DNA of 34,175 bases. Source: Bacteroidia bacterium. GTDB lineage: Bacteria; Bacteroidota; Bacteroidia; Bacteroidales; JAPLDU01. This document shows, one piece after another, positions 1 to 30,402 of this stretch. The stretch's first letter is position 1, and each line of letters starts with the position of its first letter. The stretch spans positions 1-34,175 of the forward strand of contig JAPLDU010000048.1 in NCBI GenBank assembly GCA_026391255.1, given 5' to 3'. The position numbers and the translations under genes were made by a program. A model generated the notes under the pieces. That model was not told the origin of the DNA. It worked only from the letters and a program-made list of their open reading frames with translations, and ran no database searches.

Positions 1-117
1 GAACCATAACCTCCTCATCTTCTCATTCATTAATGGAGATAATAGGTCATATCGCTTGCTTATTAAATTTATATTTCCCATTTTGCAAAGGAAATATATT
101 TTTTTGAAATAACCAAG

Positions 118-342
118 TTATTTCGTTACACTCACTAAGCCTATTATATTAAATAAACTATTTACTGTAAAATAAGGTGATGAAGTAATATCATTCAGTG
201 TACTCCTGAACAGATTAACTGGTTTAAAACCCTCGCAGGTATGGTAGAACTGTTCTTTTAACAATTGTCTTTTCAGAATATGCTCAGATTCTAAAACCTG
301 AATTGCATTTTTAAGAGAGGCAACGGAAGTGATGTCCTGCAT
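118..342 (-). CDS. Small conserved Bacteroidota protein, probably cut short by an in-frame stop
   Basis: Encodes 74 residues (MQDITSVASLKNAIQVLESE...). The N-terminal pattern of 'SVASLKxAIxxLE', then 'LLKEQF', then 'KPVNL' matches my memory of a small Bacteroidota family found beside YtxH and holin-like genes; its function is unknown. The ATG at 342 is 6 bp past the stop of the upstream membrane-protein gene, so the two are probably co-transcribed. The family is usually longer as I recall it. Here translation ends at TAA (118-120), just where a glycine-rich stretch would continue. Reading on in the same frame gives LGYFKKIYF...GNI and stays open to position 1. The gene may therefore carry a nonsense mutation or sequencing error, or may really be this short. 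No signal peptide or enzyme motif is visible. Confidence 0.55.
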   Translation of the reverse strand: MQDITSVASLKNAIQVLESEHILKRQLLKEQFYHTCEGFKPVNLFRSTLNDITSSPYFTVNSLFNIIGLVSVTK

Positions 343-348
343 ATGATT

Positions 349-690
349 TTATTTAAATACCTTTCTGATGAAATAATTGCATATCATTTTTTTAAACCAT
401 TTATGCATGAAAAAATGTACGATAATGCAGGTAATAAAATAAAAAGCAGCTACAATGAAGAATCCCATATATGTTTTGCCAAGAATTTCACCGAGCCAAA
501 ACGCCAGGCCCAGATTGAGAAAGAGCATGAAAGTTAATATTAATATTAATACAACAGAATGAGTGATGACTGAGGAAACAATGTCTGAGGTTTTATCTAA
601 AGTTTTTAGTTTTATTAACTCATAGCCTGATTTACAATAATCAGCAGCCTTTTCAAATAATGATTCTATCAATTTTGTCGTATCTTCCAT
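349..690 (-). CDS. Holin-like small inner-membrane protein (phage holin / Holin-X-like family)
   Basis: A 113-residue protein. It has an amphipathic N-terminal segment (residues 1-40, MEDTTKLIESLFEKAADYCKSG), then two hydrophobic membrane segments, about residues 42-66 (SVITHSVVLILILTFMLFLN region) and 75-95 (GFFIVAAFYFITCIIVHFF), and a basic C-terminus (HKWFKKMICNYFIRKVFK). This layout matches the small two-helix proteins that databases call 'phage holin family protein' in Bacteroidota. They are chromosomal genes, and lysis is not their demonstrated role. It is the middle gene of a three-gene minus-strand set: its start is 20 bp after the YtxH stop and its stop is 6 bp before the next ATG. 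The family call is recognition from pattern; the inner-membrane location is inferred from hydrophobicity. Confidence 0.75.
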   Translation of the reverse strand: MEDTTKLIESLFEKAADYCKSGYELIKLKTLDKTSDIVSSVITHSVVLILILTFMLFLNLGLAFWLGEILGKTYMGFFIVAAFYFITCIIVHFFMHKWFKKMICNYFIRKVFK

Positions 691-5073: not shown

Positions 5074-5098
5074 AATACTCTTAAAAGAATATTATTAA

Positions 5099-5740: not shown

Positions 5741-5767
5741 TAACCAATCTCTGAAATATTATTTCAT

Positions 5768-6328: not shown

Positions 6329-6349
6329 GCTATTCTTTCTTATTAGTCT

Positions 6350-6520: not shown

Positions 6521-6809
6521 AATTAACAATTTTTTTGTCATTCTGTTTAATTCCGAATTTATGTCAACAATATGCAAATTTGAAAGCAGCTAACAATCAG
6601 CTTTTTGTATCCTAATTTACCCTAGCTATTCCTGCTGTCACATTACAACCAGATTCCGTGATTACAATTTTAATATTATTATGCTCATTGAATATCAACT
6701 ATTTAAAAATCCCGGTTGTTCAATCCTAAAAACAAATATAAGCATTTTTTTGATAAAAACAAACGTAGAAAGCTTCCAATATCAATTAAATGATAAATAT
6801 TTTAATATT
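6521..6809. other. AT-rich gene-free stretch
   Basis: No ORF of note, RNA gene or repeat family is visible in this AT-rich DNA between the AraC upstream region and the inverted-repeat/MITE cluster. Confidence 0.5.
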
Positions 6810-7163: not shown

Positions 7164-7206
7164 TATACATATGAAAACAGTGTGTTGTGAAACATGAATC
7201 ATTTTA

Positions 7207-7237
7207 TTGTTTAATCTTTTATTCTTTAATTAATTTG
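7207..7237 (+). promoter_or_regulatory. Candidate promoter of the giant surface-protein gene
   Basis: TTAATTTG (7230-7237) is one mismatch from TAnnTTTG, and TTG at 7207-7209 is 20 bp upstream, in the range for a -33 element. It would give a leader of about 55-60 nt. The AT-rich background makes chance matches likely. Confidence 0.3.
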
Positions 7238-7300
7238 TTCTGAATCGTCCATTTTATTAAACTCTTTCAGAGAAAATAAAAATTATTAAATTTTAATGAT

Positions 7301-10300
7301 ATGAAAACATTGTTACGCCTTTGTATTTCAGTTATTTTAGTAATTGTTATTTCGGTATCGTCCTTCGGACAGTGGCAAGCGGTGAACACACCCTTTAACG
7401 GAGCCAGTGTATGGTTTTTTGCAAGCTATGGTACCAGCATCCTTGCCAGTACTGATGACGGCATTTATCAATCCTCTGATAATGGCATAAGCTGGAGTTA
7501 TTTTGGATTATCAGGTATGGGCCCATATTATATCGCGGTATACGGGACTGATATTTATGCTTCAACCTGGGGAAATGGTTTGCTCAGGTCATCCGATGGC
7601 GGGTCAACCTGGAATCTACTCGCCAATGGAATTAATTCACCTTTCATCAATGGAACAGTCATTAACGGAGCAGATTTGTTTGTGTGTGCTGATGATGGTT
7701 TGTACCGTTCCAGCGACAACGGAAACACTTTCACCCAAATGGATTTGGGAGTCAGTACAGGAGTGACCGATGTTTATATTGACAACTCTACCATTTTAGC
7801 AGCTACATACAATGGCGCCTTTAAATCTGATGATTATGGCGCCACATGGTCACAAATAGATGCCTTTGGTTATATGTGGGTAGATCAGTTTATAAATATA
7901 GGAGGAATACTCTATGTACCTACCTGGGGAGGATATGGTTTATATTATTCAACGGATGGGGGAATGTCATGGATTCCTGTTACAGGTTTCCCCGAATCCT
8001 TATCAAATATCATGTATTCTTATGAAAATTTCAAATTTGTATGTACAAATAGTGGCGTATACATTTCAAAAAATGGAACAGACTGGTTTGAATTTAACGA
8101 CGGGTTGAATGCTGCCTACTACTTAACTGGTATGTATTTTACCAATGATCATATTTTTACCGGAGGAGCTTATTCGGGCTTATGGACGAGATCAATGTCA
8201 GATCTGCAGGCTTCTGCATTAACAAATCCTGCATCGTATATCACCGATCATCAGGCAAACCTGAACGGATCAGTAAATCCAGCCGGAAACGAGACCACTG
8301 TATCATTTGAGTATGGTACAACAACATCCTATGGTTACGAAGAGCTGGCTGCACAAAGCCCTGTGAACGGATTCACCCAGACACCGGTGACCGCAATAAT
8401 TACAAACCTTCAATCTGGCACATTGTATCATTTCAGAATTAAAACTATAAATAACCCCGACACTTTGTTCAGTGCAGACGATACTTTTACTACTAACACA
8501 ACAATATTCGATATCACCGGAATTACCCTGCCCGCATGTGGTTATGGAGGTTTTACCAAATGGGCCGACGTCAATAATGATGGCAGGCCTGATCTGCTGG
8601 TTGCCGGCGGAAATCAAACGGGCGCTAACGCAGTTACAAAACTTTATTTCAATAATGGCAACGGCTCATTTACCCTTTCTGCCCAGCAGTTTCCGGGTGT
8701 TGTTTATGGATCAGCCGCATTTGGCGATTATAACAACGACGGATATCTCGACCTTATTCTCTCAGGTTATGACGATTCAGGTCATAATATTTTAAAAATG
8801 TACAGAAATAACGGCAACGGCACTTTTACTGAAACAAATAATTTTGTAGGATACCGCCGGAGCGATGTGGCCTGGTTCGATTATAACAATGACGGGTATC
8901 TCGATTTTATCGTCTGCGGTTATACAAATACCAGTAAAACAAGCGTTTATAAAAATAATGGAGATGGTACGTTTACCATTCAACCGGATATTCAGATACA
9001 CGGATTATTTGACGGTTCAATATCCATTGCCGATTACGATAAGGACGGATTTGCCGATATCCTGATCTGCGGCTATGACTATTCCTCACCAGCTACGCTG
9101 GTTTACAAGAATGACGGGAATGGCAATTTTATTGAACAGACCAGTATTCTGCTTACAGGAACCTATTATGGCAATGCAGTATGGGGAGATTATAACAACG
9201 ACGGTTATCCCGATATTCTGATAAACGGTATTACACAACCAACTTACGACTACTCGGATTCGTATTCCATTTCAAAAGTATATCTGAATAATGGAAACGG
9301 AAGCTTTACCGAACAAAATATCAACCTGATACCTGCAGGAGGCAAAGATGTAAACACTAAAGGGGTTTCCGCCTGGGTGGATTATGATAACGATGGCTGG
9401 TTAGACATCGCCCTTGCAGGTAATTCCTACAATTCATATTATTACGAAAGTCCTTCGTTCAACCTCTACCATAATAACCACGACAATACCTTCAGCCTGG
9501 TATATGTACCTGAGATACCGCCGATTCTTTCCGGTTCAATGTCTTTTGCCGATTATGATAATGACGGAAAAATGGACCTTGTTTACACAGGTGTTATTGC
9601 TTCCGGAACAGTTTCGGAAATATTCCATAATGAAGCATCTGCAGTAAACACAGTTCCTTCGGTTCCTACCGGATTAAGTACCGTGGTAAATGGCGCAAAT
9701 GTTACTTTTAACTGGAATAAAGCAACAGATACCCAAACACCGGTGGACGGACTGACTTATAACCTGAGATATGGAACCACACCGGGGGGAATTGACAGAA
9801 TTTCACCCTTGTCGGATGAAAACTCCGGTTACAGAAAGGTCATGCAAATGGGTAATGCATTCCAGGATACCAGCATTACCATTAAAAATTACAACAACGG
9901 CACCTGTTACTGGAGTGTTCAGGCATTGGACAATAATTTTGCCGGATCGGGTTTTGCGCCCGAACAATCCCTGGTTTTGGACAGTGTTCCCGTGACTCCT
10001 CCGGCATTATTCCAGTTTCAGCCTAATATCATTATTCCCGGTTTCATTTACAGTAAACTTGCCTGGGGCGAATATAATAACGACAATAACCTTGACCTGC
10101 TGATTGAAGGATCGGCCGGGCAAAATATTGCAGATGACTATTATACTGATATCTACACAAACAATGGCGACGGCACTTTCACGAAAGATATAAATGCAGG
10201 CCTGCTGGGATTGGAAGGCGGTTCGGTGAACTGGGCTGATTTCAACAATGACGGATTGCTTGATATCTTAATTACCGGGTTATCAAAGAATCAGGGTGAT

Positions 10301-13300
10301 AAATCGCTTGTTTACTTTAATAACGGAGATGGCAACTTCACCCTGCAGGCAGAATTGTCAGGGGTCGAAGACGGAGGAGCCGATGTTGGGGATTTCAATA
10401 ACGACGGATATCCTGATATCGTTGTGAATGGCGCTTCGAACAATTTTTACAACCGTATTACGAAAGTTTATATGAACAACAAAAACGGAACATTCACGGA
10501 AATGACCTATGCCAATCTTCCCGGAACCATCACCGGTTGTGTTAAATGGTTTGATTATGATAATGACGGCTATCTTGACCTGATCATTACCGGTGAAAAT
10601 AACCAGTATCAGAATATTTCAAGTATTTACAAGGGATTTGGAAACGGGCACTTTGAGCTTCAGAGTATACCACTTACCACCATGTACTATAATTCCATTG
10701 ACTGCGGGGATTATAATAATGACGGGTACACGGATATATTGATGATTGGCCAGACAGGTTATAATACTTCCGTACTTGCCGGAAAATTGTACAGAAACAA
10801 CGGCAATGGCACATTCAGCGATTCAGGAATTGATATCAACGGTTCATATTTTGGTTCGGGAATTTTCGGCGATGTGAATAACGACGGATGGCTTGATATG
10901 CTGGTGACGAGCGAAATGCCTGATAATACTCATGAAATTGATATTTACCTTAGCAACGGCGATGGAACATTTAACTTGCAGGATCAATTGAACATTCCCG
11001 GCATTTATAATGGATGTGCCGCATTCGGTGATTTTGACAATGACGGGAAACTCGATTTTGCCCTGACCGGTATCACACCGAGCGGCTTATTCACCGGGAT
11101 TTATAAAAATACCACCCCGAATGAAAATATAGTGGCCGGACCACCTTCAATCAGTAATGTTGATATAACCGGACAAAAAGCAACTATCACCTGGACACCG
11201 GGTACTGCAAATACCACCCCTGTTTCAGGGCTCAGTTATAACGTAAGTATCGGTGAGAGCCCGACAACTGTCGAAGGCTTATCACCAATGGCTGATCTCA
11301 GCACCGGTTACCGCAGAGTGGTCAGTACCGGTAATGCCGGATTGCTGACCGGTATCTCTGTAAAAGACCTAAAACCAGGCACCACCTATTACTGCAATGT
11401 CCAGGCAATTGACCATTCGTTTGCCGGTTCACTATTTTCGTCAGCCGGAACTTTCACCACCACGAATGCACCGATTGTACAGACAAAATCTGCAACCGTT
11501 ATGACCACAAATTCTGCAATGCTTCAGGGAATGGTCAATGCAAATGGTTTGCTTACTACCATTTACTTTGAATATGGCATCAATACCGGTTATGGTAATT
11601 CAACTGCAGCAGTTCCTGCCTCGATGTCCGATACGATATTGACCCCGGTGAGTGCAAATATCAGCGGACTATTATCAGGCACGGCCTATCATTTCAGACT
11701 GGTGGCAGAAAATTCAGATGGTTTGGTATATGGTGATGACATGGAATTCAATACCCATATATTTGAAGAAAGCGGGATCAACATACAATCCACAAGGTAT
11801 GGAAGTGTTGAATGGGGAGATGTGAATAACGACGGCTATCCTGACCTTCTGATAACCGGGGCAACCAGCAGCGGTATAAATAGTTTAATTACCAGGCTTT
11901 ACATGAATAACGGGAATGGCACTTTTACCCAGGCCAGTTTCCCTGCTCCCGGTGTACGAAACAGTAGTACCGCATTTGGTGATTACAACAACGATGGCTG
12001 GCTTGATGTACTGGTTATGGGTACTAAATTTGGTATGGGTTCGAATACTATTACTAAAATATACCGGAATAACGGCGATGGGACATTTACTGACAGCAAT
12101 ATCAGTCTCCCGGGATATTCATATGGGGATGTAAAATGGTTTGATTATAACAATGACGGGAATCATGATCTGATCATCAGTGGTTATTCTTCTGGCGGAT
12201 ACGTGACAAAAATATTTAAAAATAACGGAGATGGAACTTTCACCGAACAGACAGGTACTAATATTATAGGGTTGGATTATGCAACAATTGATGTGGCCGA
12301 TTACGACAGAGATGGGTTTACCGATGTACTCATCAGCGGATTGGTCGGTCCCCCTTCTTATACATATATGACCCGTATTTATAAGAATAACGGGGATGGC
12401 AGTTTCACACTTCAGAATACATCTTCGATTGATGGAACCGAAAGGGGAACATCCTCATGGGGAGATTTCAATAACGACGGATATCCTGACATACTGGTCA
12501 ATGGTTGGGATAATGATAACGGAGAATCTGTCACATTAATATATCAGAATATGGGTGATGGAACATTCTCACTTCTTGAGGGAACAAATTTTACCGGTTG
12601 TGCCGATTACAACTGGAAAGGTACTTCAACCTGGGTTGATTTTGATAACGATGGCTGGCTCGATGTTGCTGTTACCGGCGATAACGATACTCCGCCAGAC
12701 TGGAATGATTATCCCACATTTGCCCTGTACTGCAACAATCATGACAATACATTCAGCCTGGTGTCCACTCCTGAAATACAGCCGGCATACGACGGTGTGA
12801 TGTCATTTGCAGATTATGATAATGACGGGAAAATGGATTTTGTTCTTCAGGCTTATGATTTCGACAACAACCCTCAATATACGGCTCATTTATACCGCAA
12901 TATGACCCATATTGCCAATACTGCACCTGTGACTCCTGACGGACTGACCGCATTGAACGTTGGTACCGATATCATCTTCAGCTGGAATAAGGCTTCTGAT
13001 GCAGAAACCCCGCAAAACGGCCTGGGTTATAATCTCAGGGTCGCCGATTTTCCCGGCGGAGCCGACAGGTTATCCCCGATGTCGGATGTTAATGATGGAC
13101 ACCGGCAGGTCGTTCACATTGGAAATGCATCACAGGACACCAGCATTACATTGCATGGATTTACAAACGGTTCTTACTACTGGAGCGTTCAGAGTCTGGA
13201 TAACAATTATGTCGGTTCTGCATTTGCACCTGAACAGTCTCTCAATATACTGCACTGTTCTGTTTTAAATTATTTGCCTGAGAAATGTGTGACTTATATC

Positions 13301-16300
13301 GGGAATTACTCTGACCTGGGAAGCAATGGATCACAAATCCTCACAGACAATACTGATGATGCCAATTCAAACCCGGTAGATATTGGATTTTCTTTCAGTT
13401 TCGATTGCCAGGATTTTACCCAGTTTGTTCTGAATACTAATGGATTTATCAAACTTGGAAATACCAATCCTTCATCTGCTGCTCTATTCCCTCCGGCAGC
13501 AGATAACGGTGGAACGCTTTTTGCAAGCGCCAATCCTGCTGATGCCAACCTGATCATTCCATTTAATTATGACCTGATTGGCAATGCCAATACCGAATAC
13601 CGGGTTTATACCTCAGGAACAGCGCCAAACAGAATTTGTACCATACAGTATAAGAACCTGACGGAAAAAACAACCATTCCTTCTGTTCAGTATGATAATA
13701 TTGAATTTCAGATCAGACTTTATGAAACAACCAATGTGATTGAATTTGTTTATGGTACCTGGACACCTTCACTGAATGCATCTGCTTATAAGGGAGCGGG
13801 CTGCGGATTAAAAGGATCTGATTATACTGTCAACCAGGTACTTGCAGTCAGAAAAAATTCAGGAACTGCCTGGGGAAGTATTACGTTTCAGGCTGGTAAT
13901 TACCCTGCAGGATCTTATGGTTTTAATTTCGGTAATCCTCCGGCACGCCCGGCACCTGAAGTGGGCCGTACTTTCCGTTTTTCACCTCTTTCACCCACCG
14001 ATGCCACAGTGGTTCAGCTTTATGCAATGGGCAAACTTCCTATACCAACCGGAGTACCTAACGATATTACCGGTATCATTAAAAATTCAGGAACGGACAA
14101 TCTGCTGAATTATCCTGTTTACCTGAATATCACCGGTGCAAACACTTATTCAGATACTGCATATATTGACCACCTGGCGCCCAACGAATCCACAAATATC
14201 AGCTTTGCCGGATTTTTCCCTGCTTACCTCGGATGGAACACTGTCAGCATTTCAGTTCCCGATGACGGTTTCAATTATGATAATTCAAAACATTATGGAC
14301 AATGGGTAAATGAAGATACTTATTCATATGCCGACACCACTCCTCCGGGAAATTACAACTGGGGCTTCGGTACCGGTGCCGGGATTTTTCTGGTAAGATA
14401 CAATGTGAACGGAATAAAACGTGTATCACAGGTGCGTGCGAGGATTTCGAATTATGATTTTAATGTCGGCCATACAGTTTATGGAGTCGTTGTCAGTCCT
14501 GATGGCACCATCATCGGGCAATCGGATAATTATGTGATCACTGCCGCAGACAAAGGCCAGTATGTGACTTTTACCATCAATAACCCGCCATTGGTCAGTT
14601 ATGGGGATTTTTATGCCGGAATGGCTCAGACCAGTAACGGATCATCATATTATCCTTTGGTTGTGCAACCCGAAGCCCCTGGACGACCTAATGCATATTA
14701 TGGAACGGGGTTAAGCGGCGGAACAATCAGTATGGTTCAACCCTCTTCAGGAGTGAGATATGTAATTGAAGCATCGGTGACCGAACCTGCAGAACCTGTT
14801 GCAATTCCTGATCAACTCTTATATTGTGCCGGCGACAGCATCTCCGTTTCATTTACCACGCTGATGACCTTCAATCCCGGAAATGAATTTACGCTTGAAT
14901 TGTCTGACCAGTATGGTGATTTCTCCAGCCCTGTGATTCTTGGGACAAGTTCTGAAAGCCCGGTAAAAGAACTCATTCCTGGTAATATCCCTTATGGAAC
15001 AGGTTACAGGGTCAGGATCAATGCATCCGATCCTTCCACTACCGGTATTGATAACGGAGAAGATATTATCATCAATAATCCGGTCTACACTGAAAGCCTA
15101 GATATCCAGGTGCCATTCGAAAGCCTGCTCACGAGTAACAGCCCTGTTTGTGGAAATTACGATCTGTTACTGCAATCACCATTTATCGCTGATGCTCATT
15201 ATTCATGGACAGGTCCGGATGGATTTATTTCCACTGACCAGAATCCTGTTATTCATAATGCCACACTTGTAACCGCAGGTGATTACACTCTTGTGGTCAT
15301 CAAAAATGGCTGCTATTCTGAACCATTTAATATTGATGTTGAAGTTATTCCAGTTATTGTTCCTCAGATTACCGTGAACGGAGGTACAGTGATCTGTCTT
15401 GGGGATTCAGCCGGGCTCAGCGCTGTGACTATCCCGGGGTTCAATTATCAATGGCAGCTTAACGGACAGAATATCGAGGGAGCAACCGGTGCAACATATA
15501 AAGCTTATATGACAGGAAGTTACACAATTACCCTGATTGCATCCTGTGGTAATTTTATTTCTGATGCTGTTCAGATTACTGTAACTGATCCTCTGAACGG
15601 GCTTGGATTCGTTAACCAGCAGGGACTCATTGCTTATTATCCTAACAATGGAAATGCCAATGACGCCTCAGGCAACGGGTTCAATGGAACAGTTAATGGC
15701 TGTTCACTTACCACTGATAAGGATGGCATTCAGAATCATGCGTATTATTACAACTATGGAAATTACATCAATTATGGCACTATGCCGGGCATTTCGTTCG
15801 GTGAAGAACTAACTGTCTGTGCCTGGGTAAATCCTTCCAATTTTTATGAGTATGGCGGCATCGTTACCAAAGGAAGCGGTGGATATGAAGATTTTACACT
15901 GGTCACACAGGACGACCAGAGGTTCCACTTCAGGTCAAATTGGCCAAATAACTGGTACGACATGCCTTCTGCTCCTCATTCTACAGGGCAATGGTATTTT
16001 CTGACCGGTGTATTTGACCATGGAACCGCAAGTATCTATGTGAATGGTGTGCTTGAAAATTCCGGAACATGGGGTATGAGCTCGTTAAGTAACCCTTCCG
16101 ACTCCTGGCTTTCAACCGGTGTTAACCAGCCCGGAAGCTGGGAATATTTTACCGGTACTATTGATGAAGTGAGATTATACAACAGGGTACTGACAAATGA
16201 GGAAATCGGGTTATTATACTCTTCAGCGCCCAATATCGTTGCCGGTGTCAATCCTGTGTGCCTTGGCGGAACACTCCAGCTTTCGGCTCAAACGATTCAG

Positions 16301-19300
16301 GGCGCTTCTTATTCGTGGTCTGGTCCCGAAGGTTTTTCATCCAATGAACAGAATCCCGTGATAACCGGTATGACTGACAACCAGGCAGGCGATTACAATT
16401 TAGTCGTCACTAACAATGGATGCTCTACGCAACCCATGTCCGTTCATGTACAGGTTATCGAACCACCGGTTGTAGATCTCGGGCCAGATCTGACCATATG
16501 CCAGAATTCGGATTATACACTTGATGCCGGAAATGCAGGCAGTACCTTCGTCTGGAACAACGGTTCCACAAACCAGACTCTCACTGTTTCAGATCCGGGT
16601 ACATACTCAGTGACAGTCACCAGTACTTATGGTTGTGTATCATCTGATGAAGTTGTTGTCAATAATCTATCCCCGGTTCTGATCAATCTTCCCGATACGA
16701 TAATAGCGGGTTGCGGTACTGACTCATATATGCTTGATGCAGGTGCAGACTTTACTTCATACTACTGGAATACCGGTGAATATTCTCAAATAAAATATGT
16801 GTATGGAACCGGCATTTATACAGTTACTGTCACTGATCCTGACGGATGTATAGCCAGTAAAACAGTATTTGTGAGCCTGCTTCCCCCAATTGCACAATCC
16901 TCGCAGACAATATGCTACGGCTCATCGACCATCATGTCAATGTCTGACACTTCATTTTCAGTTGCAAGTGATTATTCAGTGAAAGCTACACCTTACTGGT
17001 ATCCGGGATGGGAACAGCCCGGCTTTGATGATAGTTACTGGAATAATGCCATTTATGCAGGATGTACGGGTGTTGTTCCGGGTTCAAACCGGATTTGGTG
17101 CAACCCTTATGGTGGGAATGCCTATTTCAGGAAAAGCTTCAATTTAATGGCTATGCCGGAATCTGCGCCTATCCTGATTACCGCTGATGACGGATTTGAT
17201 CTTTATGTAAACGGATCATTTGTGGGCAGCGGAGGAAGCTGGGGTTATTTCTACCCGTTTGATATATTGCCTTACCTGCATACCGGTGAAAACCTCATAG
17301 CTGCTGACGCAGGAAACAGCTATAGTTGCTACCAGCTTACCTTCAGGGCAGATTTCAATCATGTCGGAATTTATTCATATCTTTGGTCAACCGCTGAAAC
17401 ATCACAGGCAATTAATGTTTCTCCCCTGGTAAATACGAGTTATTATGTGACTGTAAGCGATGGAATCCAGTCATGCACCGACAGCGTTACAGTTAATATT
17501 AATCCTTTGCCCCAGTTATCATTGCAGGATACCATACTGGTAGCTTGCGAAACAGCATCATTTCAGCTTGATGCCGGCGGTGGGTACGATTATTATGCCT
17601 GGAATAACGGTGGGACCGCAGAAACACTCGATGTGCAGGGTTCCGGCAGGTATTCAGTGACGGTTACTGATGAAAACGGATGCAATGGCAGCGACACAAC
17701 TTTTGTCAGTTATATTAACTCATCCATTCTTCAGGATGATATCTGGCTTTGTTCCGGTTCATCAGTACTGATCAATAACACAGGTTTCTCAGCATACCTT
17801 AATCAGAACCAGGCCGGTGTGTACCAATACGATAGTTTTGAAGGCGGGCCGGGCAGTCCGGACGATTGGTTCAGCCGCGATGGAGTAGATCCTGACATTA
17901 CAAACAGTACTTCTTACACAGGAAATTATTCACTTCACATGTCGTCTCCCTGGGGCGGTGATTTCGAAAATGGCAGTTATCTCGAACCCGGTCAGGCATA
18001 TGGATTTTATACAAATGATTATCCCTATATGAGCATGGCGTACAAAATACCTGAAGGAACCATTGTTAATATGCTGGTGTATATTCAAAATTTTGGCAAT
18101 TGGCATTCTATTACGATGAACCAGGGTGAAAGTCCATGTTCCTATCCGAAAATAGCCTCATGGAATGAAGGTGGCGCTTTGATCACGGATAATCAATGGC
18201 ACTTTAAAACTATCAACCTGCGCGACCAGATGAATGACATTCTTGGAACAGGTAATTACTATGTTACTGCAATCATCTGGTACGACGGTGGCTGTGAAAC
18301 ACCGGTCACCGGTGAATTCTGGATTGATGATTTTATGATAACCCGGGAAGCGCCAATAAATCCTAATTCAGTATATTCATTATCCTGGTCAACAGGCGCT
18401 ACGACTTCATCCATTATGGTTTCACCGATTGAAGACAGCACATATTACCTGACTGTTACTGACGGTATCCAGAGTTGCACCGACAGCGTTACTGTCCATA
18501 TAAATCCATTACCGATATTCTCTTTACCTGATACGGTTTATGTTCCCTGTGGTACTTCATCTTATGATTTAAATGCAAGTGAGGGATTTGTAGGTTACCT
18601 GTGGAGCAATAATGCTACTGATGACTCAATCAATATTTTCACATCCGGCACTTATGCGTGTACAGTTACTGACCAGAACGGCTGTATTTCTTCATCACAA
18701 AGCACAATCAGCATTATTCCTCCTTTAATGACTCATGAGCAAACAATCTGCCAGGGCAATAATGCAATGATCTTTTCAAATATAGTAGATGATAACAACC
18801 TGGTTGCTTATTATCCTTTTAACGGAAATGCCATTGATGAAAGCGGAAATGGTCACGATGGTTCGGTATATGGCGCCCAACTGATCTCAGACCGCTTCGG
18901 ACAGTCAAACTCCGCTTATTATTTTAACGGTTCAAGCTATATTGAAACTGCTAATTCAAATGGAATGAATTTCAGCGGGGCATTTACCGCATCTGTCTGG
19001 ATAAATGTAAATTATTATACCGGTGAAAATATAGTAATCATCGGAAAACATTATTGCGGGTATAAAAACGGCTGGTTTATCACACATAATGGAAGCGGGT
19101 TTGCGTTTTACATTGGTGGTTCCAATCAACTTCACACCACCCAGTCTTATATTGATGGAAACTGGCATCATGTGGTTGCAGTTTTTGATGGCTATTATCA
19201 ATATTTATATGTTGACGGGGCGCTTGATAACTACCAACCCACTTCTCCCGAATGGGGCAATAGCGCTCCGGTCAGATTTGGTGTGGCAAACTGTTCTTAC

Positions 19301-22300
19301 TACAGAGGAGGGATCGATGATATAGCAATCTTCAGCAGGGCTTTATCTGCACAGGAAATATCAGAGTTCTATTCCACCAATAATCTTAGCGCTGTGAATT
19401 ACAATTATTCATGGTCAACAGGAGAACAAAACTCGAATATTAATGTATCACCTTCCGAAACTACAACTTATTATGTAACTATAACGGATGGAATGCAAAG
19501 CTGTACTGACAGTTTCACTGTAAATATCAATCCTATCCCTGAACTATCATTGCAGGACACAATACTTGTGCCTTGCGGAACATCATCTTACCAACTTGAT
19601 GCCGGTGATAATTTAGCTTCATATTTATGGAGCACTGGTGAACAGTCATCATCAATCCCGGTTGGTATTTCCGGTACTTACAGTGTGACAGTCAGTAACG
19701 GGTTTGGCTGTACCAGGACAGATTCGAGCATGGTAAGTATTATTCCTCCATTTATTCAGGAAGATACTGCTATATGCACCGGATCTGATGTTTTGCTGGG
19801 ATTAGACGTTCAACAGTTTACCAGCCCGGGAGTAAACAGTTTTAATTTCACATGGTCAACTGCTGAAACTTCTGCAGATATTACTGTTTCTCCCACCGAG
19901 ACAAGCACATATTTTGTAACGATCACTGATGGCATTCAAACCTGTACCGACAGCATCACGGTAAATATCAATCCATTGCCACAGTTATCATTACAGGATA
20001 CTATCCTCGTGCCTTGCGGAACAACATTATTTCAACTTGATGCCGGAGGAGGATACAGTTATTATTCCTGGAATAATGGCGGAACTGCAGAAATGCTTGA
20101 TGTACAGGGTTCCGGCAAGTTTTCGGTGACGGTTACCGATGAAAATGGATGTAAAGGAAGTGACACGACCATGATAAGTTATATCAATTCACCCATTCTT
20201 CAGAATGACCTTTGGATGTGTCCCGGGTCATCTGTACAACTTTCATCTACAGGTTACTTACCTTACACTGACCTGAACCAGGCCGGAGCATATGATTATG
20301 ATAATTTCGAAGGCGGGCCGGGCAGCCCTGACGACTGGACCAGCCGCAACGGAGTAGACCCGGACATCACGAATACTACGTCCTACACAGGAAATTATTC
20401 ACTTCATATGCCATCTCCCTGGGGCCGGGATTTTGAAAGTGGCAGTGGCCTCGAACAGGGACAGCCCTATGGATTTAATACCGATGATTATCCCTACATG
20501 AGCATGGCATACAAAGTACCTCCCGGAACACTTGTAAATATGCTGGTATTAATTCCCGGCTATAGCTGGTGTTCAATCACCATGACACAGGGAGAAACTC
20601 CGTGTACCTATCCTAAAGTTGCCTCATGGAATGAAGGTGGTGATTTAATTGCAGATAATCAATGGCACTTTAAAACCATCAACCTACGCGACCAGATGAA
20701 TGCCATTCTTGGAACAGGCAATTACTATATCACTGCCGTTATCTGGCATACCGGTGGCTGTCTGCCTGGTCCTGCCGGTGAATTCTGGATCGACGATTTT
20801 ATGATCACGCATGACGTGCCGGCTGATCCCAGGTCAGTATATTCATTCTCATGGTCGACAGGTGATACTACAACTTCAGTTAATGTCACACCTGTTGAAA
20901 CTACCACATATTACCTGACGGTATCTGACGGTATGCAGAGTTGCACCGACAGCGCAACTGTTCATGTCAATCCGCAGATTGTGTCATCATTGCCTGATAC
21001 TTTGATTGTACCTTGCGGAGATCATTCCGCAATACTTGATGCGGGAACTGGTAATTATTCTTATCTCTGGAATACCGGAGAAATAACAGAAGCAATAAAT
21101 GCATACAGTACAGGTACTTATAGTGTAACTCTTTCAGATGAAAACGGATGCCAGGGCACACATGAAACATATGTAAGCATTATTCCGGGAATTTTACAGT
21201 CAGATACAGCAATATGCTATGGTTCAGGCATTGAAATTGGAATAATCCCGGATAACACATCGGCATATTATCCTTTCAATGGTAATGCAAACGATCAGAG
21301 TGGAAATGGTAATGATGGAACTGTTTATGGCGCTTCACTGACTAATGATCGTTTTAACAACCAAAATTCTGCATATAGTTTCAGCGGTAATGGTGATTAT
21401 ATATTAGTTGCAGATCCTGTTCCTGCTGATTTGCAGATACAGAATGAAATTACTCTTTCGGCCTGGATTTTCGTTACTGATATTCCTTACGGTGATCTCG
21501 GTTTGATAGCAGGAAGCCAATATGATGGAACCGGGTCAGGTGCAAGTATTTTCTTCGATGGACGTACAAGTCCTGATGGTCAGCCATCACCTCCCGGCCA
21601 CATTCATTTCCAGATCGGAAATGGTTCCTGGCACACTACCAATTCAAATTCAACCGTTCCTTTAAATCAGTGGGTATTAATTACTGCCACAAGAAAAGCA
21701 AATGAGAACGGGAAAATCTATTATAACGGGGTTTTACAACCTTCCAACAGTGCACCCTGGAATGGTGAAATAACTTATTATGGTTCATGGTTAGCAATAG
21801 GACGGCAAAAAGATCTTTATCGTCCGTTTAATGGAATGATCGACGAAGTAAGAATATACAACCGTGCTCTTTCTCAGCAGGAAATTCTGTCACTTTATAA
21901 TTATGACGGTATTTATTCATACAACTGGTCAACCGGCGAAACCAGTGCATCTGTTATGCAATCGCCACATGAAAATACCACCTATTATGTCACGGTTACC
22001 GACGGAACCCAGACTTGTTCCGATAGCGTAACTGTTCATGTTAACACCATCCCAGAAATAAACCTCGGGGTGAACCTTACAAATTGCAATAATAGCCCAA
22101 TGACCCTCGATGCAGGCAACCCCGGAGCAAATTTCCTCTGGAACGATGGCTCCACCGGGCAGACGCTCGGAATTACAGGATCAGGAACATATTCTGTAAC
22201 CGTTTCAAATAATAACTGTTCAGCATCCGGTGAAGTATCCGTCATTTATTACCCGCCGCTCAGCGTTGACCTTGGCAATGATACCACTCTTTATACCGGA

Positions 22301-25300
22301 AATTCAATAATACTCGATGCCGGCCCGGGAGGCGAAGATTATTTGTGGTCAACCGGTGAGACTACACAAAGCATTGTGGCTTCAACAACCGGAACTTATT
22401 CTGTAACCGTTACGAATCCTTGCGGCAGCGAGTCTGACGAAATTAATGTGACCGTGATAAATCCTCCATTGATTGAAGTACATCCTTCATCAATTACTGC
22501 AATTCTGAATTACGGGGAACCCGGCTCGCAAACCTTCACCATAATTAATTCAGGTAATGATAACCTGTCGTTTGATATTACAGATATTCCATGGTGGTTT
22601 GGTTTATCGCAGACTAACGGAATCATTGCCCCCGGCAATTTTGAAGAAATAACCGTCAGTTTTGCCAACACCCTGCCCGGTAGTGATTACTACGATTTGC
22701 TGAACATCTATTCCAATGATCCTGCCAACCCTCTTATAAACCTGCCGGTGTACCTCACCGTTTACCAGCCTTTGATGTACGTGACGCCAACTGATATCAA
22801 CTTCGGAACGGTAGTTAAAAACTTTACTTCTTCCATAAATGTATCGCTGGTAAATAATGGAAATGCTGATATTACCGTGAACAGTATAACAACCATGGCG
22901 CCTTTCTCAGTCGGTTCATTTGATGCGGTAGTTCATGCAGGAACAACCATGAATGTTGCGGTAAACTTTACTCCAACTGCTACAGTAATTTATCACAAAA
23001 CACTGAGCATCAGTACATCGTTTGGAAACTTCAGTGTTGACCTGCATGGAACAGGACAGAACCCTGCGCCGGGCTGGTCTTTCTCATTCACTGATCATAA
23101 CTTTGGATATACCGATACTGCCACGGGTGCTACAACATTGCTGACAATTAACAATACAGGCAATGTACCGGTGAACATCACCAATGTAGTATCAAGCAGC
23201 CCGCATTTCACAATTTCGGAAACTGCATTTACCATACCTGTCGGTAGCAACCACAATGTCCAGATCGGGTTCAATCCCAATGCCCTCATCAGTTATTCAG
23301 GAGTACTTAATTTCTCTTCAAATAATTGCGGAACAAAGCTGGTCACTCTTGAAGGGATCGGTATGATGCTTACTCCGCCACCGCAACTAACCTATGATGA
23401 TTCCATTCCATTCAATGGCTCTGATGGAGTTGCCCCAACGGTCGGGCCGACTTCACAGCACTTTGAGTATTCAGTTATTTACACCGATCCGGACAATAAT
23501 CCGCCGATGGCCGGCTATCCGAAAATAGGGATTGATGTGAATGGCGACGGCGATTTCCTCGATTCAGGTGAAGGGTGGATCACCATGTCTGAGACCGATG
23601 CTTCGGATCACAATTACATTGATGGTAAAAAATATGTATATTATACCACTTTCCCTGCTTCACCCTATTATGCTTATAGTTATAAAGCTTATAATCAGTT
23701 TGGCGATGCTGCCATAGGCGAAGCCACACAATACCGCAGCGGTCCGCTGGTAAGCAATAATATGCTTGATCTTCTCATCTATGCCAATGATATCACATTC
23801 TCAGACCCTACACCTGCCATCGGACAGGAAATCACCATCTATGCCAACGTACATGATTATTCTGATTATCCGGCCGATACACCTTTCGTCGTGCAGTTCT
23901 GGGCTGAAGACACCCTGATAGGTGAGCAGACCGTCAATTATCTTGGCGCGCATTCATCCATTATTCTTCAAATGAATCATACCTTTACCTGGCCTGAGTT
24001 CTACCCGATCAAAGTAATAGTTGATGCCACCAATGTTCTCACTGAAGATAATGAATTCAATAATTTTGCCATCCGGCCTATCATTGCCGGTGAATTCTCC
24101 GTTCCAGGCTCTATTTCAGTAACAGCTAACATTTCACCGGAAGTAAGCTATTATCATGTCGGAGAACCGCCACCACTTATGCATTATCATGGCCATGCCG
24201 ATTATGTCGGGTCGTTTGATTCTGAGACCCAAGTATCAGGTGCAGAAGTGACTTTGACATATATTGAAGCCGGTTTAACATTGACCACATTCACCAATTC
24301 CAACGGCGATTTTGATTTTTATTTTTACACTGATACACCGCCTGAAGGCGATACAGCAATTTATCATGCACAATCCACCGTTACCGATTATACCCTGACC
24401 TCAACCACAGGATTGGCTCATTGGAAAGTGATCACATCGCCACCGGCACCTAAGCATCCAGACCTCAATGTATTTCACTGGGTTTACTCCTGTTGCTGGG
24501 AGCCGGCAATTTCATGGACCGATTCCTGCATACTGGCAGGTGAACCGATTGAGGTCACCGCATCAGTTTGGAATTCCGGTGATTCTGTTGCTTATAATGT
24601 AAAGTTCTATGGTTATAAAGATAATGTGACTGACACTGCTTTTGTTGTATATTATGATACCCTTTACCCGGGAGAAGGAAGAACCGAGCAATTCACCGTT
24701 ACATTTGATTCTGCAGGAAATCACTCAGTAGGAGTTTTTGCCGACCCGGAAAACACCATTGCAGAATCGAATGAAGGCAATAACCAGACAAGTATCAGCC
24801 GTAAGATTTACAACACGGATGTTGATCTCTCACCCGGTATTCCTGGTTTAAATAATGGCATCTGGATTTCTAAAGTCGATCCCCTGGAAGGAGAAAATGT
24901 AATGTTGAGCCTAAGTACAACTAATTCGCTATGCAATATAGCCGGAGCATCAACAGGCCGCCTGTATGATGTGTTCAATGGCGATTCAACACTGATCGAA
25001 GAACTGCAATATCCACTGATCGGACCAATGGACAATGTTACACGGTATATATACAATTATTCTTTCGACAGCGTCGGCGATCATACCCTTGTTGGCATCG
25101 TGGATTATTATAACCAGGTAATTGAAAATGACGAAACTAACAACACAGGGACATTGGTGGTTCATGTTAAACCACGTATCCCCGACCTGACATTTTCAAC
25201 ATTCCCGGGTAATGTAGATGAGTCACTCAATATTTCAGCATCTGATGTAAATGTGGGCGATGAGATTAACTTTTCTGCCGGTATTCAGAATTACGGTACA

Positions 25301-28300
25301 GGCGATGCTGAAAACTTCTTTGTCAGGTTTTATTTAGATAACGTACCTTTAGGAAGCCCCGTTCTTATTCCTTTACTCCAGGCACATCAATCCGTGACCC
25401 TGATTTCAGACCCATGGACTATCCTGCCTTGCGGACATAAACTAAGAGTGACAATAGACGAAGAAAACCTGGTTTCAGAACTGAATGAAGATAATAATGA
25501 AGCAAAAAAGGATAACCTCGGAGTCGACCTGAAACCGGTAGATCCGGGAGGCAGCGGTTGGGCAAATACTCCCATCTTCGTTGGTACAACTGTCTATAAT
25601 CTGGGTGCTTTTCAGGCTGATTCCGTTACTGTGTATTATTATTGTTCAAACTGCGATCCATTAGATTCTAACCTTCTCTTAGGTTACGATGTTTTACCTC
25701 ACGTCCCTGCACAGGGATATACCTGGTCACGTATCGTTCATACGTTTACCGAATCAAAAATATACAACATACATGTCTATGTGGACAGCACGCTTTACTG
25801 TGAAATCAAAACATCAAACAACTCTGAGGACGGTCATGTTGGGATTATGCATGAACTACCCGACCTGGTAATCTACTCCTATCAGATTTCACCAACTGAA
25901 CTGAACCCCGACCCGGGTGAAGACGTCAGCATCTATTCTTCCTTTAATAATACCAGCAATGTTGCGTCAGGACCGTTTAAAGTCCAGTTCAAAGTGGACA
26001 GCAACCCGATTGGTGATATCATTGATGTGCCAAACTTAGGCCCGCATGGAGACACAACGGTTGCCTGTTCCCAAAACTGGTCGTCGCTGTTAATCGGGCC
26101 TCATATTATCAGGGTCTTCCTCGATACAGAAAACCAGGTTAATGAAAGTAGTGAACTGAATAATGAAGCAAGCAGGGCTATCATTGTCGGCGACGCACCA
26201 GATATGAAGTTCGCCAACGTAGATGGCCTGGTATTATCCAATGATACTCCGGCAATCGGTGATTGGATTACCATTACAGTCCGTATTAAAGATATCGGGG
26301 GTGCGGATGGTGCGGCAACTGTGAACTTCTATTATGTAAATGCCAGCGATAGCATTCTGATACAAACAAACCAGTTCACATTACATAATCATGATTCGAT
26401 GGATATTACTTTCCCCTGGCAGGCTGCCAGTACATTCGGAAAAATTACCGGTGTTATATCAGGTTGTACACCCACAGAATTCAATCTTTATAATAATACG
26501 ATCGATAAGTTTTTCGGAACTCCTTTAATTGCAATGACCGCACAGGTTGTCGGCTCATCGCTTAACATTTGCGGCAGTGGCTCAACTCAGATATTGGCTA
26601 TTCCGGCAGGAGGAACCGGTTCATATACTGTCACCTGGACATCCGATCCTCCGGGATTGAATTATACCGGGACATCTCTCACTGTTTCTCCAACCTTTAC
26701 CACCACCTATATCGCCACCATTACTGACGGATATTATACCCAGACCTATTCAACCGTTGTCGCTGTCAATTCTATCATGACTGTTGCCTTTGGAGGACTA
26801 TCTGATCTTTACTGTGCTAACGGTCAGCCGTCACTGCTCATTCCAAATCCCTCTGGAGGAGTATTTAACGGTCCGGGAATAAATGGTTACTATTTTGATC
26901 CTTCAATTGCAGGTCCCGGATACCATGCCATTACTTATAATTACTCGGATCCGAACGGTTGCAACGGAACTGTCATCAATCATACCACCGTGGTTGCAGT
27001 TCCCGAATTCACACTTGATCATGCCAATGCTACCTGCAACGGAAGCTCTGACGGTTCTGTCATGCTTCAATTGACCAATTCAGGTGAAACAACTGAAATC
27101 CTGTGGTCAAATGGTATGTCTGATCAAAATATGAATGGACTGGTCGCCGGAATTTATACGGTGACTGTAACTTTCGATGATCTGTGCAGCAGCACCGGCT
27201 CGGCAGAAATCATGCAACCGGAACCACTTGCTATTTCTTCCACAGTAACAGGTATTTCAGCTACCGGTATGAATGATGGCTCAATTGACCTGACCGTTAG
27301 CGGAGGAACTTCTCCCTATTCCTTTTATTGGTCGGACGGCTCACTTACCGGGGATATTGAAAACCTCCAGGCAGGAACCTATTCAGTTACTGTGACTGAT
27401 GCAATTAACTGCCAGGCTTTTGCCGTCTACACGGTATATGTCATCACCTCTCAGACCATTCAAATGGTGACTGGATGGAACCTGTATTCCACTTATATTG
27501 ATCCTGTCGATCCAGGTATTAATGCCGTACTTTCACCCGTCATCAGTCAGGTGATCATTGCCAAAAATGACGACGGACTGGTATTCTGGCCTTTATACGG
27601 GGTTGATTATATCGGGAACGTGAAAACCGGAAAAGCATATTACATCAAAATGTCAACTAACCAGGCATTAACAATCACTGGTGCACTTATTATTCCTGAA
27701 CTAACGCCATTGAACCTGCGCCAGAACTGGAGTTATACCGGCTACCTGCGCGAAACACCGGCAAGCATTGCAGCGCTTCTGAGCAATATCATCAGCCATG
27801 TTGTGATTGTGACAGATGGAGGAGGTAATGTTTTCTGGCCATCATGGGGTCTGAACCATATCGGGAATATGAATCCTGGCCTCGGTTATCATTTCATGAT
27901 GTCATCTCCTGATATCCTGATTTATCCGCCTGATAATACCAATATTGCAAAATCATACATTGATGTCCCAACGAATAAATATTATACCGGGACAATCAAT
28001 ACCGGAAACTATATGATACTTGGTATTCCTGGCAGTGCATGGCAAACGGGAGATGGTACTATCAGACTTAATCAGGGTGATGAGATTGGTGTTTTCGATG
28101 AATCTGGTAATTTGATTGGTTCCTCAGTCTATAATAGTGAGAATACTGCAATAACTCTATGGGGCGATGATATCACTACTCAGGAAAAGGATGGTATGGC
28201 TGACGGGGAAAAGTTCACCATCAGGGTCTGGCAGCAGGCAACACCAGGCAATTATAGTGAAACCGAGACAGAACTTAAGGTGGCTGAATGGAAACAAGGC

Positions 28301-28630: not shown

Positions 28631-28640
28631 AATGATTCCC

Positions 28641-28677
28641 AAGCCCCCTCCGGTATCCGTGAGGGGGCTTCTTTTTT
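28641..28677 (+). terminator. Rho-independent terminator of the giant gene
   Basis: Perfect 10-bp stem AAGCCCCCTC (28641-28650) and GAGGGGGCTT (28661-28670), a 10-nt loop, then CTTTTTT. It starts 10 bp after the stop codon. Confidence 0.9.
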
Positions 28678-28782
28678 AAAACGAGGTGAATAAGTTACAT
28701 CTCATTTTTCAACTTCATTTAAATAGTAATTTTTTGTTCGACTGAAAATTCTCATTTCACTTCGTTCCGTAAATCTTGTCAC

Positions 28783-28822
28783 AAATAAAAAAGCCACCTA
28801 CATTTTCATCTCGTAAGTGGCT
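28783..28822 (-). terminator. Orphan minus-strand terminator
   Basis: Read on the minus strand, AGCCACTTAC pairs with GTAGGTGGCT around an 11-nt loop (one mismatch), followed by TTTTTTATTTG. No minus-strand gene ends here; the only candidate upstream is the tRNA-3'-end-like fragment at 28831-28855. Confidence 0.65.
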
Positions 28823-28830
28823 CATTCTCT

Positions 28831-28855
28831 TGTGATCCCGGTGGGATTCAAAATC
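28831..28855 (-). other. tRNA 3'-end-like fragment, candidate attachment site
   Basis: Minus-strand text TTTGAATCCCACCGGGATCACA resembles a tRNA T-arm plus acceptor 3' strand (usual form TTCGAATCCC...GGGATCA). It lies directly upstream of the orphan terminator, as a tRNA 3' end would. The DNA farther upstream on that strand (28856-28925) does not look like the rest of a tRNA. With a tyrosine recombinase about 170 bp away, an att remnant is a reasonable inference. Confidence 0.45.
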
Positions 28856-28960
28856 ATACTTTTTATTACAACTAATTTCTTCTATTTACACTATAAATTA
28901 GCTATATACTTATATTATAGATGTAATTCAAAATAATAAAATTACTCCTGAATTAAAAAT

Positions 28961-28984
28961 AGTTTCAGTAAAAGTTTCAGTAAA
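28961..28984 (+). repeat. 12-bp tandem repeat before the recombinase gene
   Basis: AGTTTCAGTAAA occurs twice head to tail (28961-28972, 28973-28984). It could be a binding site for the recombinase or for a regulator; the second copy overlaps the -33 region of the gene's likely promoter. Confidence 0.55.
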
Positions 28985-29004
28985 TATTTAAAATGCTATT
29001 TTTG
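28975..29004 (+). promoter_or_regulatory. Promoter of the tyrosine recombinase gene
   Basis: TATTTTTG (28997-29004) is an exact TAnnTTTG -7 element, with TTTC (28975-28978) 18 bp upstream as the -33 element. Transcription would start about 12-15 nt before the ATG at 29023, so the upstream in-frame ATG at 28993 cannot be the start. Confidence 0.55.
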
Positions 29005-29022
29005 CATCAAATATTTTATGAC

Positions 29023-30246
29023 ATGAAAACAACATTTAACCTGGAATTAAATTCCAAACCAAAATCAAATGGTTTTCACGACATCTTATTAAGGGTAACC
29101 CATAAGCAAAAGCATAAACGTTACTCCCTCAATGTTTCCGTAAAAGCCACCAATTTTAACAAGAAAGCTAAATTTGGATCCTGGATAAGAAGTACTGATT
29201 TAGAGCATAAGAGCAAGAACGAATTTTTAAAAATAAAGATACAGGAAGCCGAAGAAGTCTACAGGGAACTGGAAAAAGACAACAATGACACAAGTTCGGT
29301 TGTTGTCATTAAACTGCTGAAACAGGATAAAAACCTGAATTTTTTCCCCTTTGCTGATAAGATTTATGACCAGTTTTTTGCTACCGGAAATATTGGTACA
29401 GCAAGAAGGATTAAGTCCAATGTAAAGAAACTGCGTGACTATACCAAAAACGAACTGCTGTTTACCGACATTAATCCAGCCTTTTTAGATGATTATGAGC
29501 AACATCTTAAAACCAGTTATCATAACTCCCAAAACACCGTACATGCTAATCTGCGCACTATCAAGGCAATTTTTCGTAAGGCAGTACGGAATAATATAAT
29601 TGGTATGGAAAAGGATCCATTTTATAAGTATGAATTGAAACCCGGACACCCGGTCAGGGATAAACTTGACCTTGAGGAAATAAAAAAAATTGAAGAACTT
29701 ATTATTAAGCCCGACTCATTTTTATGGCATTGCCGTAATTATTTTCTCTTTAGCTTTTATTGTGCCGGTATAAGGGCAGGAGATATTATGGAGTTACGAT
29801 GGTCAAATATCAGGGATGGCAGGTTGGTTTACACCATGGGGAAAACCGGCAGTCATCATAGCATCAAATTAATACCACAGGCTCAGGTCATTTTAGGTTA
29901 TTATCAAAAAAGTGATTGTTTGCCTGATGATTACATCTTTCCAATCCTGAATACCAAATTTGACCTCTCCGACCCCAGATTGCTGTTCAGCCAGAAATCA
30001 TCAAAACTTGCCATGATCAACGGGGTTTTAAAGGAATTAGCCAGACAGATAAATACAAGTAAAAGAATTTCGTTCCATATCAGTCGGCATTCATTTGCTT
30101 CCATCTCCAAAGACAAGAACATCTCCGTTGAAAAGATCAGCGAATTGCTCGGCCATAACGATATCAAGACTACCAAAACCTATCTGAAAGGATTCTCAAA
30201 TACTGAACTGGACAATACCATGTCACAAATATTTAATGAGAAATGA
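29023..30246 (+). CDS. Tyrosine recombinase / site-specific integrase (Bacteroidota type)
   Basis: 407 residues from the Met at 29023. An N-terminal arm-binding-type segment (MKTTFNLELNSKPKSNG...RYSLNVSVKATNFN) is followed by a SAM-like core-binding domain (about 105-205: FADKIYDQF...TARRIKSNVKKLRDY...NTVHANLRTIKAIFRKAV). The catalytic domain (about 220-395) has all active-site residues: R251 (CAGIRAGDIMELRW), K274 (GKTGSHHSIKL), H352 and R355 (HISRHSFAS), H378 (LLGHNDIKTT) and nucleophile Y387 (TKTYLKG). It should be active in strand exchange by a 3'-phosphotyrosine intermediate. Length and layout match integrases of Bacteroidota integrative elements. No excisionase, mobilisation or phage gene is in view, so its cargo is unclear. 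The adjacent att-like fragment fits its role. Confidence 0.92.
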   Translation: MKTTFNLELNSKPKSNGFHDILLRVTHKQKHKRYSLNVSVKATNFNKKAKFGSWIRSTDLEHKSKNEFLKIKIQEAEEVYRELEKDNNDTSSVVVIKLLKQDKNLNFFPFADKIYDQFFATGNIGTARRIKSNVKKLRDYTKNELLFTDINPAFLDDYEQHLKTSYHNSQNTVHANLRTIKAIFRKAVRNNIIGMEKDPFYKYELKPGHPVRDKLDLEEIKKIEELIIKPDSFLWHCRNYFLFSFYCAGIRAGDIMELRWSNIRDGRLVYTMGKTGSHHSIKLIPQAQVILGYYQKSDCLPDDYIFPILNTKFDLSDPRLLFSQKSSKLAMINGVLKELARQINTSKRISFHISRHSFASISKDKNISVEKISELLGHNDIKTTKTYLKGFSNTELDNTMSQIFNEK

Positions 30247-30292
30247 GTAGGAACCAGAGGAATTGCCAATAACATTCTTACTCCAAAATTGA

Positions 30293-30335
30293 GAAACAGC
30301 CACATATAAAATAATTATTAGTGGCTGTTTCATTA
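30293..30335. terminator. Bidirectional terminator between convergent genes
   Basis: An 11-bp perfect stem, GAAACAGCCAC (30293-30303) and GTGGCTGTTTC (30321-30331), with a 17-nt AT-rich loop. The T-tracts are short on both sides. Its place between the recombinase and the converging adhesin gene supports the call. Confidence 0.55.
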
Positions 30336-30402
30336 GACCTATAAGTAATCATACAATTTCAAAATTTACCATGCTATTTAGGGCAGGTAAAAGATAACCA
30401 GG

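Follow-up and report, generated by a model that had tools for sequence, protein, structure and literature searches.

The DNA analysed here (the window) is a stretch of 34,175 nt, read on the forward strand, of contig JAPLDU010000048.1 from the genome of a Bacteroidia bacterium (GCA_026391255.1), and one open reading frame in it encodes a giant surface protein. We consider it highly probable that this protein is an adhesin secreted by the type IX secretion system (T9SS), with a stalk in which binding-type domains (guests) are inserted into one loop of split immunoglobulin (Ig)-like domains (hosts). Between residues 3120 and 5060, an intact Ig-like domain (pattern DTI..CGTS..LDAG..YLWSTG..GTYSVTVTD..GC) alternates with a second Ig-like unit, the host, the parts of which usually lie far apart. 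The first half of the host comprises two strands (xCxGS..L) and the second half four strands (WST..CTDS). As the original prediction had it from the sequence, six host copies are present, five of them nested around a guest of ~140–220 residues, and copy 4 contains a linker only (Table 1).

The reading frame and the positions of the conserved residues agree with this count. In copies 1 to 6 the first-half Cys lies at residues 3205, 3484, 3817, 4159, 4307, and 4639, and the Trp of the WST motif at residues 3362, 3696, 4038, 4185, 4518, and 4876, which leaves 156, 211, 220, 25, 210, and 236 residues in between, compared with 16–22 residues in 37 contiguous hosts of other genomes. When a profile built from the six window copies (second half, intact Ig-like domain, and first half) was used, the gaps between its successive matches were 144, 197, 207, 12, 196, and 223 residues ahead of copies 1 to 6. 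The first half had been described as ICxGSxxxL; its IC start holds for four copies (copies 2 and 5 start with LC or MC). Copy 4 had been proposed as an empty host; it indeed has no guest domain, but its linker is longer than that of any of the 37 contiguous hosts and it is thus not a bare host. It may be, as a guess, a host that lost its guest. A scar left by a C-type lectin was considered, as the first half is 42% like that of the paralogue copy with this guest, but it is 46% like that of copy 6 and no such origin is claimed.

Table 1. Positions of the giant protein, its sorting domain and the parts of the six host copies in the window
Feature	Position (nt)	Strand	Remarks
Giant surface protein, 7109 amino acids (aa)	7301..28630	+	one open reading frame
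Copy 1 host, first half (..TICYGSSTIMS..)	16883..16945	+	
Copy 1 guest, GH2 sugar-binding-like (weak match)	16946..17365	+	
Copy 1 host, second half (YSYLWST..CTDSVTVNINP)	17369..17512	+	
Copy 2 host, first half (..WLCSGSSVL..)	17723..17785	+	
Copy 2 guest, FEGGPGSPDDW domain, matching no known family	17786..18367	+	
Copy 2 host, second half	18368..18514	+	
Copy 3 host, first half (..TICQGNNAM..)	18722..18784	+	
Copy 3 guest, Laminin_G_3	18785..19393	+	Pfam
Copy 3 host, second half	19394..19537	+	
Copy 4, host without guest domain	19748..19981	+	25 residues from Cys to Trp
Copy 5 host, first half (..WMCPGSSVQLS..)	20192..20254	+	
Copy 5 guest, FEGGPGSPDDW domain	20255..20833	+	model pLDDT < 50
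Copy 5 host, second half	20834..20977	+	together with first half, model range aligned to a solved domain
Copy 6 host, first half (..AICYGSGIEIG..)	21188..21250	+	
Copy 6 guest, Laminin_G_3	21251..21907	+	Pfam; ConA-like fold in model
Copy 6 host, second half	21908..22048	+	
T9SS C-terminal sorting domain (Por_Secre_tail)	28394..28612	+	Pfam 3.4e-09, above cut-off

Structure modelling with AlphaFold2 covered copies 4, 5, and 6. Model 1 contained copy 6 with both neighbours (alignment of 15 sequences, no contiguous hosts among them), and model 2 contained copies 4 and 5 with their neighbours (14 sequences, including ten contiguous arrays). The intact Ig-like neighbours were predicted with six strands and the WST segment of the split hosts with four only, so that, as expected from the original prediction, this segment does not form a complete Ig-like domain alone in the models. 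Copy 6 reads TAIC and IEIG, then the guest, then SYNW, SVMQ, TTYYVTVT, and TCSDSVTVHVN; guest-free copy 4 has all six strands in sequence (TAIC, VLLG, NFTW, DITV, STYFVTIT, TCTDSITVNIN), and copy 5 follows the strand pattern of copy 4, broken 2+4. For copy 5, the predicted local distance difference test (pLDDT) gave block means of 78–92 in the host halves, with 56 where they border on the guest. When model 2 was compared with solved structures, a PKD/Ig-like domain of mouse SORCS2 (6fg9_B) was aligned over 74 residues (2.3 Å, Z 7.5, range 216..481), from the copy 5 first half to the end of its second half and across the guest at 243–435; intact domains in the same table match over 73–75 residues (e.g., 1iil_G at 71..149). 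As the table gives end points only, this alignment is strong but indirect, model-based support for one host across the guest. The matches of model 1 lie almost wholly over its LamG part, and the four best are AbnA entries (Z 20.4–19.9, from 94/97 to 312–314). The region can thus be described as a sequence-discontinuous Ig-like domain with another domain between its parts.

Whether the two halves belong together was also addressed with a host profile made from the 37 distinct contiguous hosts of relatives, none of which came from the own genome, though they had been found with the window's profile. The second half of each copy was joined to any 21-residue piece of the first half and guest, and scored on this profile. 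The best completing piece was the first half in all five nested window copies, starting one residue into the expected place, and no piece beyond it scored equally. In two other proteins of the same genome (the C88 paralogue and the C66 protein), the first half was the best completion in six of eight copies. Summed over the five nested window copies, the spliced hosts scored 288.0 bits, which exceeds every one of 500 sets with shuffled first halves (maximum 263.2) and is therefore not due to chance. For single copies, the true score was equalled by 0, 1, 2, 0, and 15 of 500 shuffles (window copies 1, 2, 3, 5, and 6), by 2 for copy 4, and by 9, 16, 473, 42, 13, 0, 0, and 1 for paralogue copies k1–k7 and the C66 copy. 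An earlier control with random pieces of the same protein (1–9 of 200 as good for the six window copies, 0–183 for the eight others) was weak, because the protein holds many Ig first halves, and was replaced by the shuffles and the slide through the guest.

The guests of copies 2 and 5 share the FEGGPGSPDDW domain (hereafter FEGG), and those of copies 3 and 6, predicted to be LamG-like, match Laminin_G_3 (1.8e-45, two stretches in Pfam); a ConA-like fold was seen for the copy 6 guest, the only one of the two examined for it (Z 20.4, model 1). The copy 1 guest is GH2 sugar-binding-like (0.0028, below the cut-off), and its counterpart in the C88 paralogue lies above the cut-off (1.1e-7). For the copy 3 LamG, Pfam lists Toxin_R_bind_N as well (18824–19345 in the window, 2.5e-06), and the copy 6 LamG model resembles clostridial neurotoxin binding domains. 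A toxin reading was rejected in favour of a shared ConA-like fold, as the Laminin_G_3 match is far stronger and there is no toxin sign. A third Laminin_G_3 stretch of the giant protein lies outside the nested region, un-nested between complete Ig-like domains (residues 2827–2969, window 15779–16207). FEGG had no Pfam match, its copy 2 had no NCBIfam match, and no match at E 1e-5 was found in 392 other genomes of the order.

The arrangement recurs in other proteins. The C88 paralogue consists of two frames with gaps of 138–217 residues at the same point and carries seven guests (GH2-N-like, four LamG, FEGG, and a C-type lectin). In the C66 protein (1000 aa), a single nested LamG precedes copies that have gaps of 5–7 residues, and several further proteins of the genome hold copies with gaps of ~5–12 residues. 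Altogether, 34 nested copies with six guest kinds were counted in 13 genomes of nine families (the own genome and 12 others from eight further families): LamG (19), C-type lectin (8), FEGG (3), GH2-N-like (2), CHRD (1), and DFEN (1). The search proposed originally for the same host with other guests has thus yielded C-type lectin, CHRD, and DFEN guests in other Bacteroidota genomes. These copies were chosen by visual inspection of fetched loci before being measured; as only the best matches were fetched, the list is no census, and it leaves out G219 and G121 (uninspected) as well as partial C-type lectin matches (G335, G157, G163). A nested-LamG profile gave full-length matches in several families among 393 genomes of the order, and two more families of the class were added by 375 genomes of the phylum. 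The nested C-type lectin matched 6 of the 393 genomes at 1e-12, and lectins between both host halves were found in two genomes, G206 and G054, the latter with four in a single frame. Two C-type lectin guests match PF00059 (5e-16 in the C88 paralogue, above the cut-off, and 7e-18). In one protein of G206 (1924 aa), which ends with a CHU_C T9SS signal, three hosts hold a DFEN guest (unnamed), a LamG, and a C-type lectin; genome G353 has a nested CHRD domain (PF07452, 5.9e-24). The GH2-N-like nested unit is present at full length only in the own genome, and whatever matched among 373 others was partial.

Further observations were made during these searches. At the end of contig C50 of the own genome (L118), another GH2-N-like guest follows a first-half-like segment and is cut by the contig end. 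In G206 (L123, 2468–8239), residues ~585–830 between two hosts read like a beta-propeller, with no Pfam family at 0.1. The 'guest' gaps of two relatives (L065 and L059) turned out to be other Ig domains, and of 40 matches to the second half only, many were low-gain, resembled ordinary SprB-like or Ig repeats, and were not counted. The host-alignment search of genome contig and viral contig collections, with one peptide pattern per scan, returned no relative, and a retroelement able to vary the C-type lectins was sought in the own genome without any RVT_1 match.

The family name of the host is uncertain given mixed results for Ig_7 (PF19081), the CHU_C-associated Ig-like domain. A contiguous array from L055, a relative, scores above the cut-off (2.7e-18) and that of L123 falls just below, yet no match was listed at 0.1 for L124, L075, and the copy 4 stretch, or at 0.01 for the window region. 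Pfam named none of the window hosts, guest-free copy 4 included, and judged by sequence the host would be an outlying Ig_7 member at best.

As for the protein as a whole, Pfam recognized FG-GAP repeats, fn3, Laminin_G_3, HYDIN-type Ig, CARDB, SprB repeat, and Por_Secre_tail; the last is a C-terminal sorting domain as found in T9SS cargo. When the entire protein was scanned with Pfam as three pieces, no RTX family was listed at E 0.01. The genome (4.08 Mb, fragmented into 161 contigs) has at least 150 T9SS tail matches (150 of 150 candidates scored), and among the 59 other genomes used as relatives, none belongs to its own family.

We propose that the alternating Ig-like domains form the stalk of a T9SS-secreted giant adhesin. 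In a split host, the chain would exit via the loop between strands 2 and 3, fold the guest, and return for the last four strands. The conserved Cys of the first half (near the second strand) and that of the second (at the last strand) may form a disulphide that staples the host across the guest. All 12 nested copies in the window protein and the C88 paralogue keep both Cys, as do 27 of the 34 overall. The guests would protrude sideways from the stalk. With the head in a loop, the ends of the stalk stay unoccupied, and heads could be placed anywhere along it. Judging by their fold families and the likeness to RTX adhesins, LamG, C-type lectin, and GH2-N-like guests probably bind glycans, in which case the chain would offer several binding sites with the stalk unbroken.

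Several points weigh against this reading. The completion fails for paralogue copies k3 and k4 (473 and 42 of 500 shuffles as good), copies k1, k2, and k5 have 1, 9, and 5 guest pieces that equal or exceed the unshifted first half, and for window copy 6, 15 of 500 shuffles do as well. The models are moderate (mean pLDDT 76.1 for model 1 and 68.7 for model 2, with FEGG < 50), the five models of job 1 spread from 76.1 to 51.9, and, as they came without coordinates, the host packing and the disulphide were not seen. The ten contiguous arrays in the alignment of model 2 may favour its result, whereas that of model 1 had none. One or both Cys are missing from 7 of the 34 nested copies, and the first is absent from four nested copies of one G054 protein. 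The un-nested LamG in the same giant protein implies that nesting is not required for display.

In an alternative, the nested fold is right and the guests are spacers or structural fillers without a binding role. FEGG, DFEN, and CHRD guests are not known to us to have a binding function. However, LamG, C-type lectin, and GH2-N-like guests, 29 of the 34, are members of lectin-like or sugar-binding families or similar to them, and in RTX adhesins, domains with proven glycan binding sit in the split hosts (PMC12077191, PMC10865825), which makes filler guests rather unlikely.

It is still less probable, to the point of being improbable, that the domains are merely arranged in series, with CxGS as a tail or linker of the preceding Ig-like domain and WST as a short domain of its own. 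The first halves are short (~20 residues) and weak in paralogue copies k3 and k4, and two relatives (L071 and L131) have an un-nested LamG with an intact Ig behind it; both had been picked up as nested-LamG matches and were rejected on reading, so that a match range alone is no proof of nesting. A serial arrangement is, however, hard to reconcile with a preceding Ig-like domain that has its six strands without CxGS, with a WST segment of only four, with contiguous hosts elsewhere that hold both halves 16–22 residues apart, and with the best completion at the first half in every nested window copy. An assembly artefact of a repetitive gene in an incomplete genome can practically be dismissed: although there are 161 contigs and the two frames of the C88 paralogue meet at a run of unread bases, the giant gene is a single open frame of 7109 codons, its copies have diverged and are not identical, and the same arrangement exists in 12 other genomes.

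In FEGG copies 2 and 5, DNA identity is 81% for the guest, 79% for the Ig that precedes the host, and 83% for the second half, and because of this likeness throughout, a cassette of Ig, split host, and FEGG guest was probably duplicated. The duplication of cassettes seen in the original prediction holds to this extent and not for LamG or for FEGG-LamG as one block: the LamG guests of copies 3 and 6 are 39% identical as proteins, and copy 3 is closest (47%) to a LamG of the C88 paralogue. Host likeness was compared among 11 copies with GH2-N-like, FEGG, or LamG guests. Second halves were 55% identical for the same guest and 57% for different guests (3542 of 5000 permutations as large), and first halves 27% and 24%, respectively (907 of 5000). 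A Mantel test of LamG guests against their hosts gave r 0.50 for first halves (25/720) and r −0.11 for second halves (468/720). Host likeness independent of guest kind fits an exchange of guests, and also an evening-out of hosts by gene conversion.

A pattern scan of genome contigs revealed one FEGG relative (46% identity) in a giant archaeal protein (L099). Its open frame (360–7562) extends over 2401 aa to the contig end and has a second guest-like block at residues ~1800–1990. Around the FEGG block, the first Ig part scored 17.6 bits, the second 13.4, and both joined 21.3 (4 of 500 second-part shuffles as good); for the second block, the scores were 8.8, 6.5, and 15.4 bits joined (2 of 500). 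By sequence, this is suggestive only of an archaeal FEGG relative nested once more in an Ig-like repeat, one of a different kind and with a different insertion point. A wider view is offered tentatively, as we hold it somewhat doubtful: the strand 2–3 loop might be a class-wide docking point which unrelated binding domains have entered often and where they assort independently of hosts, giving a mixed receptor array, and FEGG might be a new binding domain suited to nesting, nested again in the archaeal protein.

Split Ig-like domains from which ligand-binding domains project are in print for RTX adhesins, where the guests bind fucosylated glycans (PMC12077191, PMC10865825). Vibrio FrhA, Aeromonas AhLap, and Marinomonas MpIBP resemble the protein described here in being giant fibrillar adhesins with a discontinuous Ig-like domain that emits a ligand-binding domain. 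They differ in that the chain leaves after the first strand (as stated for 9CSE) and not after the second, as in both of our models, in that secretion is by the RTX/type I route and not by T9SS, and in number, AhLap having two split Ig-like domains compared with five guests here and seven in the two frames of the paralogue, beside guest-free hosts. Hence, the region works like a split Ig-like domain, yet the protein is no RTX adhesin, and what differs is the secretion route, the break point, the guests, and their number per chain. The principle of the architecture, first thought unusual, is already described, and its occurrence in T9SS proteins or Bacteroidota appears unreported: guests nested in Ig domains of T9SS proteins or of Bacteroidota were not reported in the literature searched (most subscription journals lie outside its coverage), the word 'nested' is absent from the main text of a survey of fibrillar adhesins (PMC8286594), and the accessible part of PMC11674741 has nothing on nesting. 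The best structural match of the Ig chain was the grappling-hook protein GhpA of Aureispira (9flu_A, Z 9.8, 278 residues aligned, with a root-mean-square deviation of 10.1 Å over several domains). Aureispira belongs to the same phylum as the source organism.

Directly downstream of the giant gene lies a tyrosine recombinase (window 28993–30246, + strand; Arm-DNA-bind_5, SAM-like, Phage_integrase). An invertible element beside this integrase was looked for within 24000–34175, and no inverted repeats of at least 25 bases (seed 12) were found. On the minus strand of 30403–34175, an SprB-repeat frame (902 aa from its ATG) runs open to the window end and overlaps by 4 bases with a frame bearing a T9SS tail. 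The two may be one gene broken by a frameshift, because the T9SS-tail frame begins inside a domain resembling the C-terminus of the giant protein.

These results would extend the principle of split domains to a further secretion system, with the break at a different place in the host. Since a single chain holds guests of three kinds in the same loop, beside a guest-free copy, the giant protein offers a natural test of domain nesting. The arrangement also gives a possible reading of why many adhesive domains of Bacteroidetes fibrillar adhesins lie, surprisingly, in the middle of the protein, as noted in the survey (PMC8286594). Moreover, it suggests a rule by which unknown binding domains such as FEGG and DFEN may be found, namely to look between the two halves of an Ig-like stalk domain.

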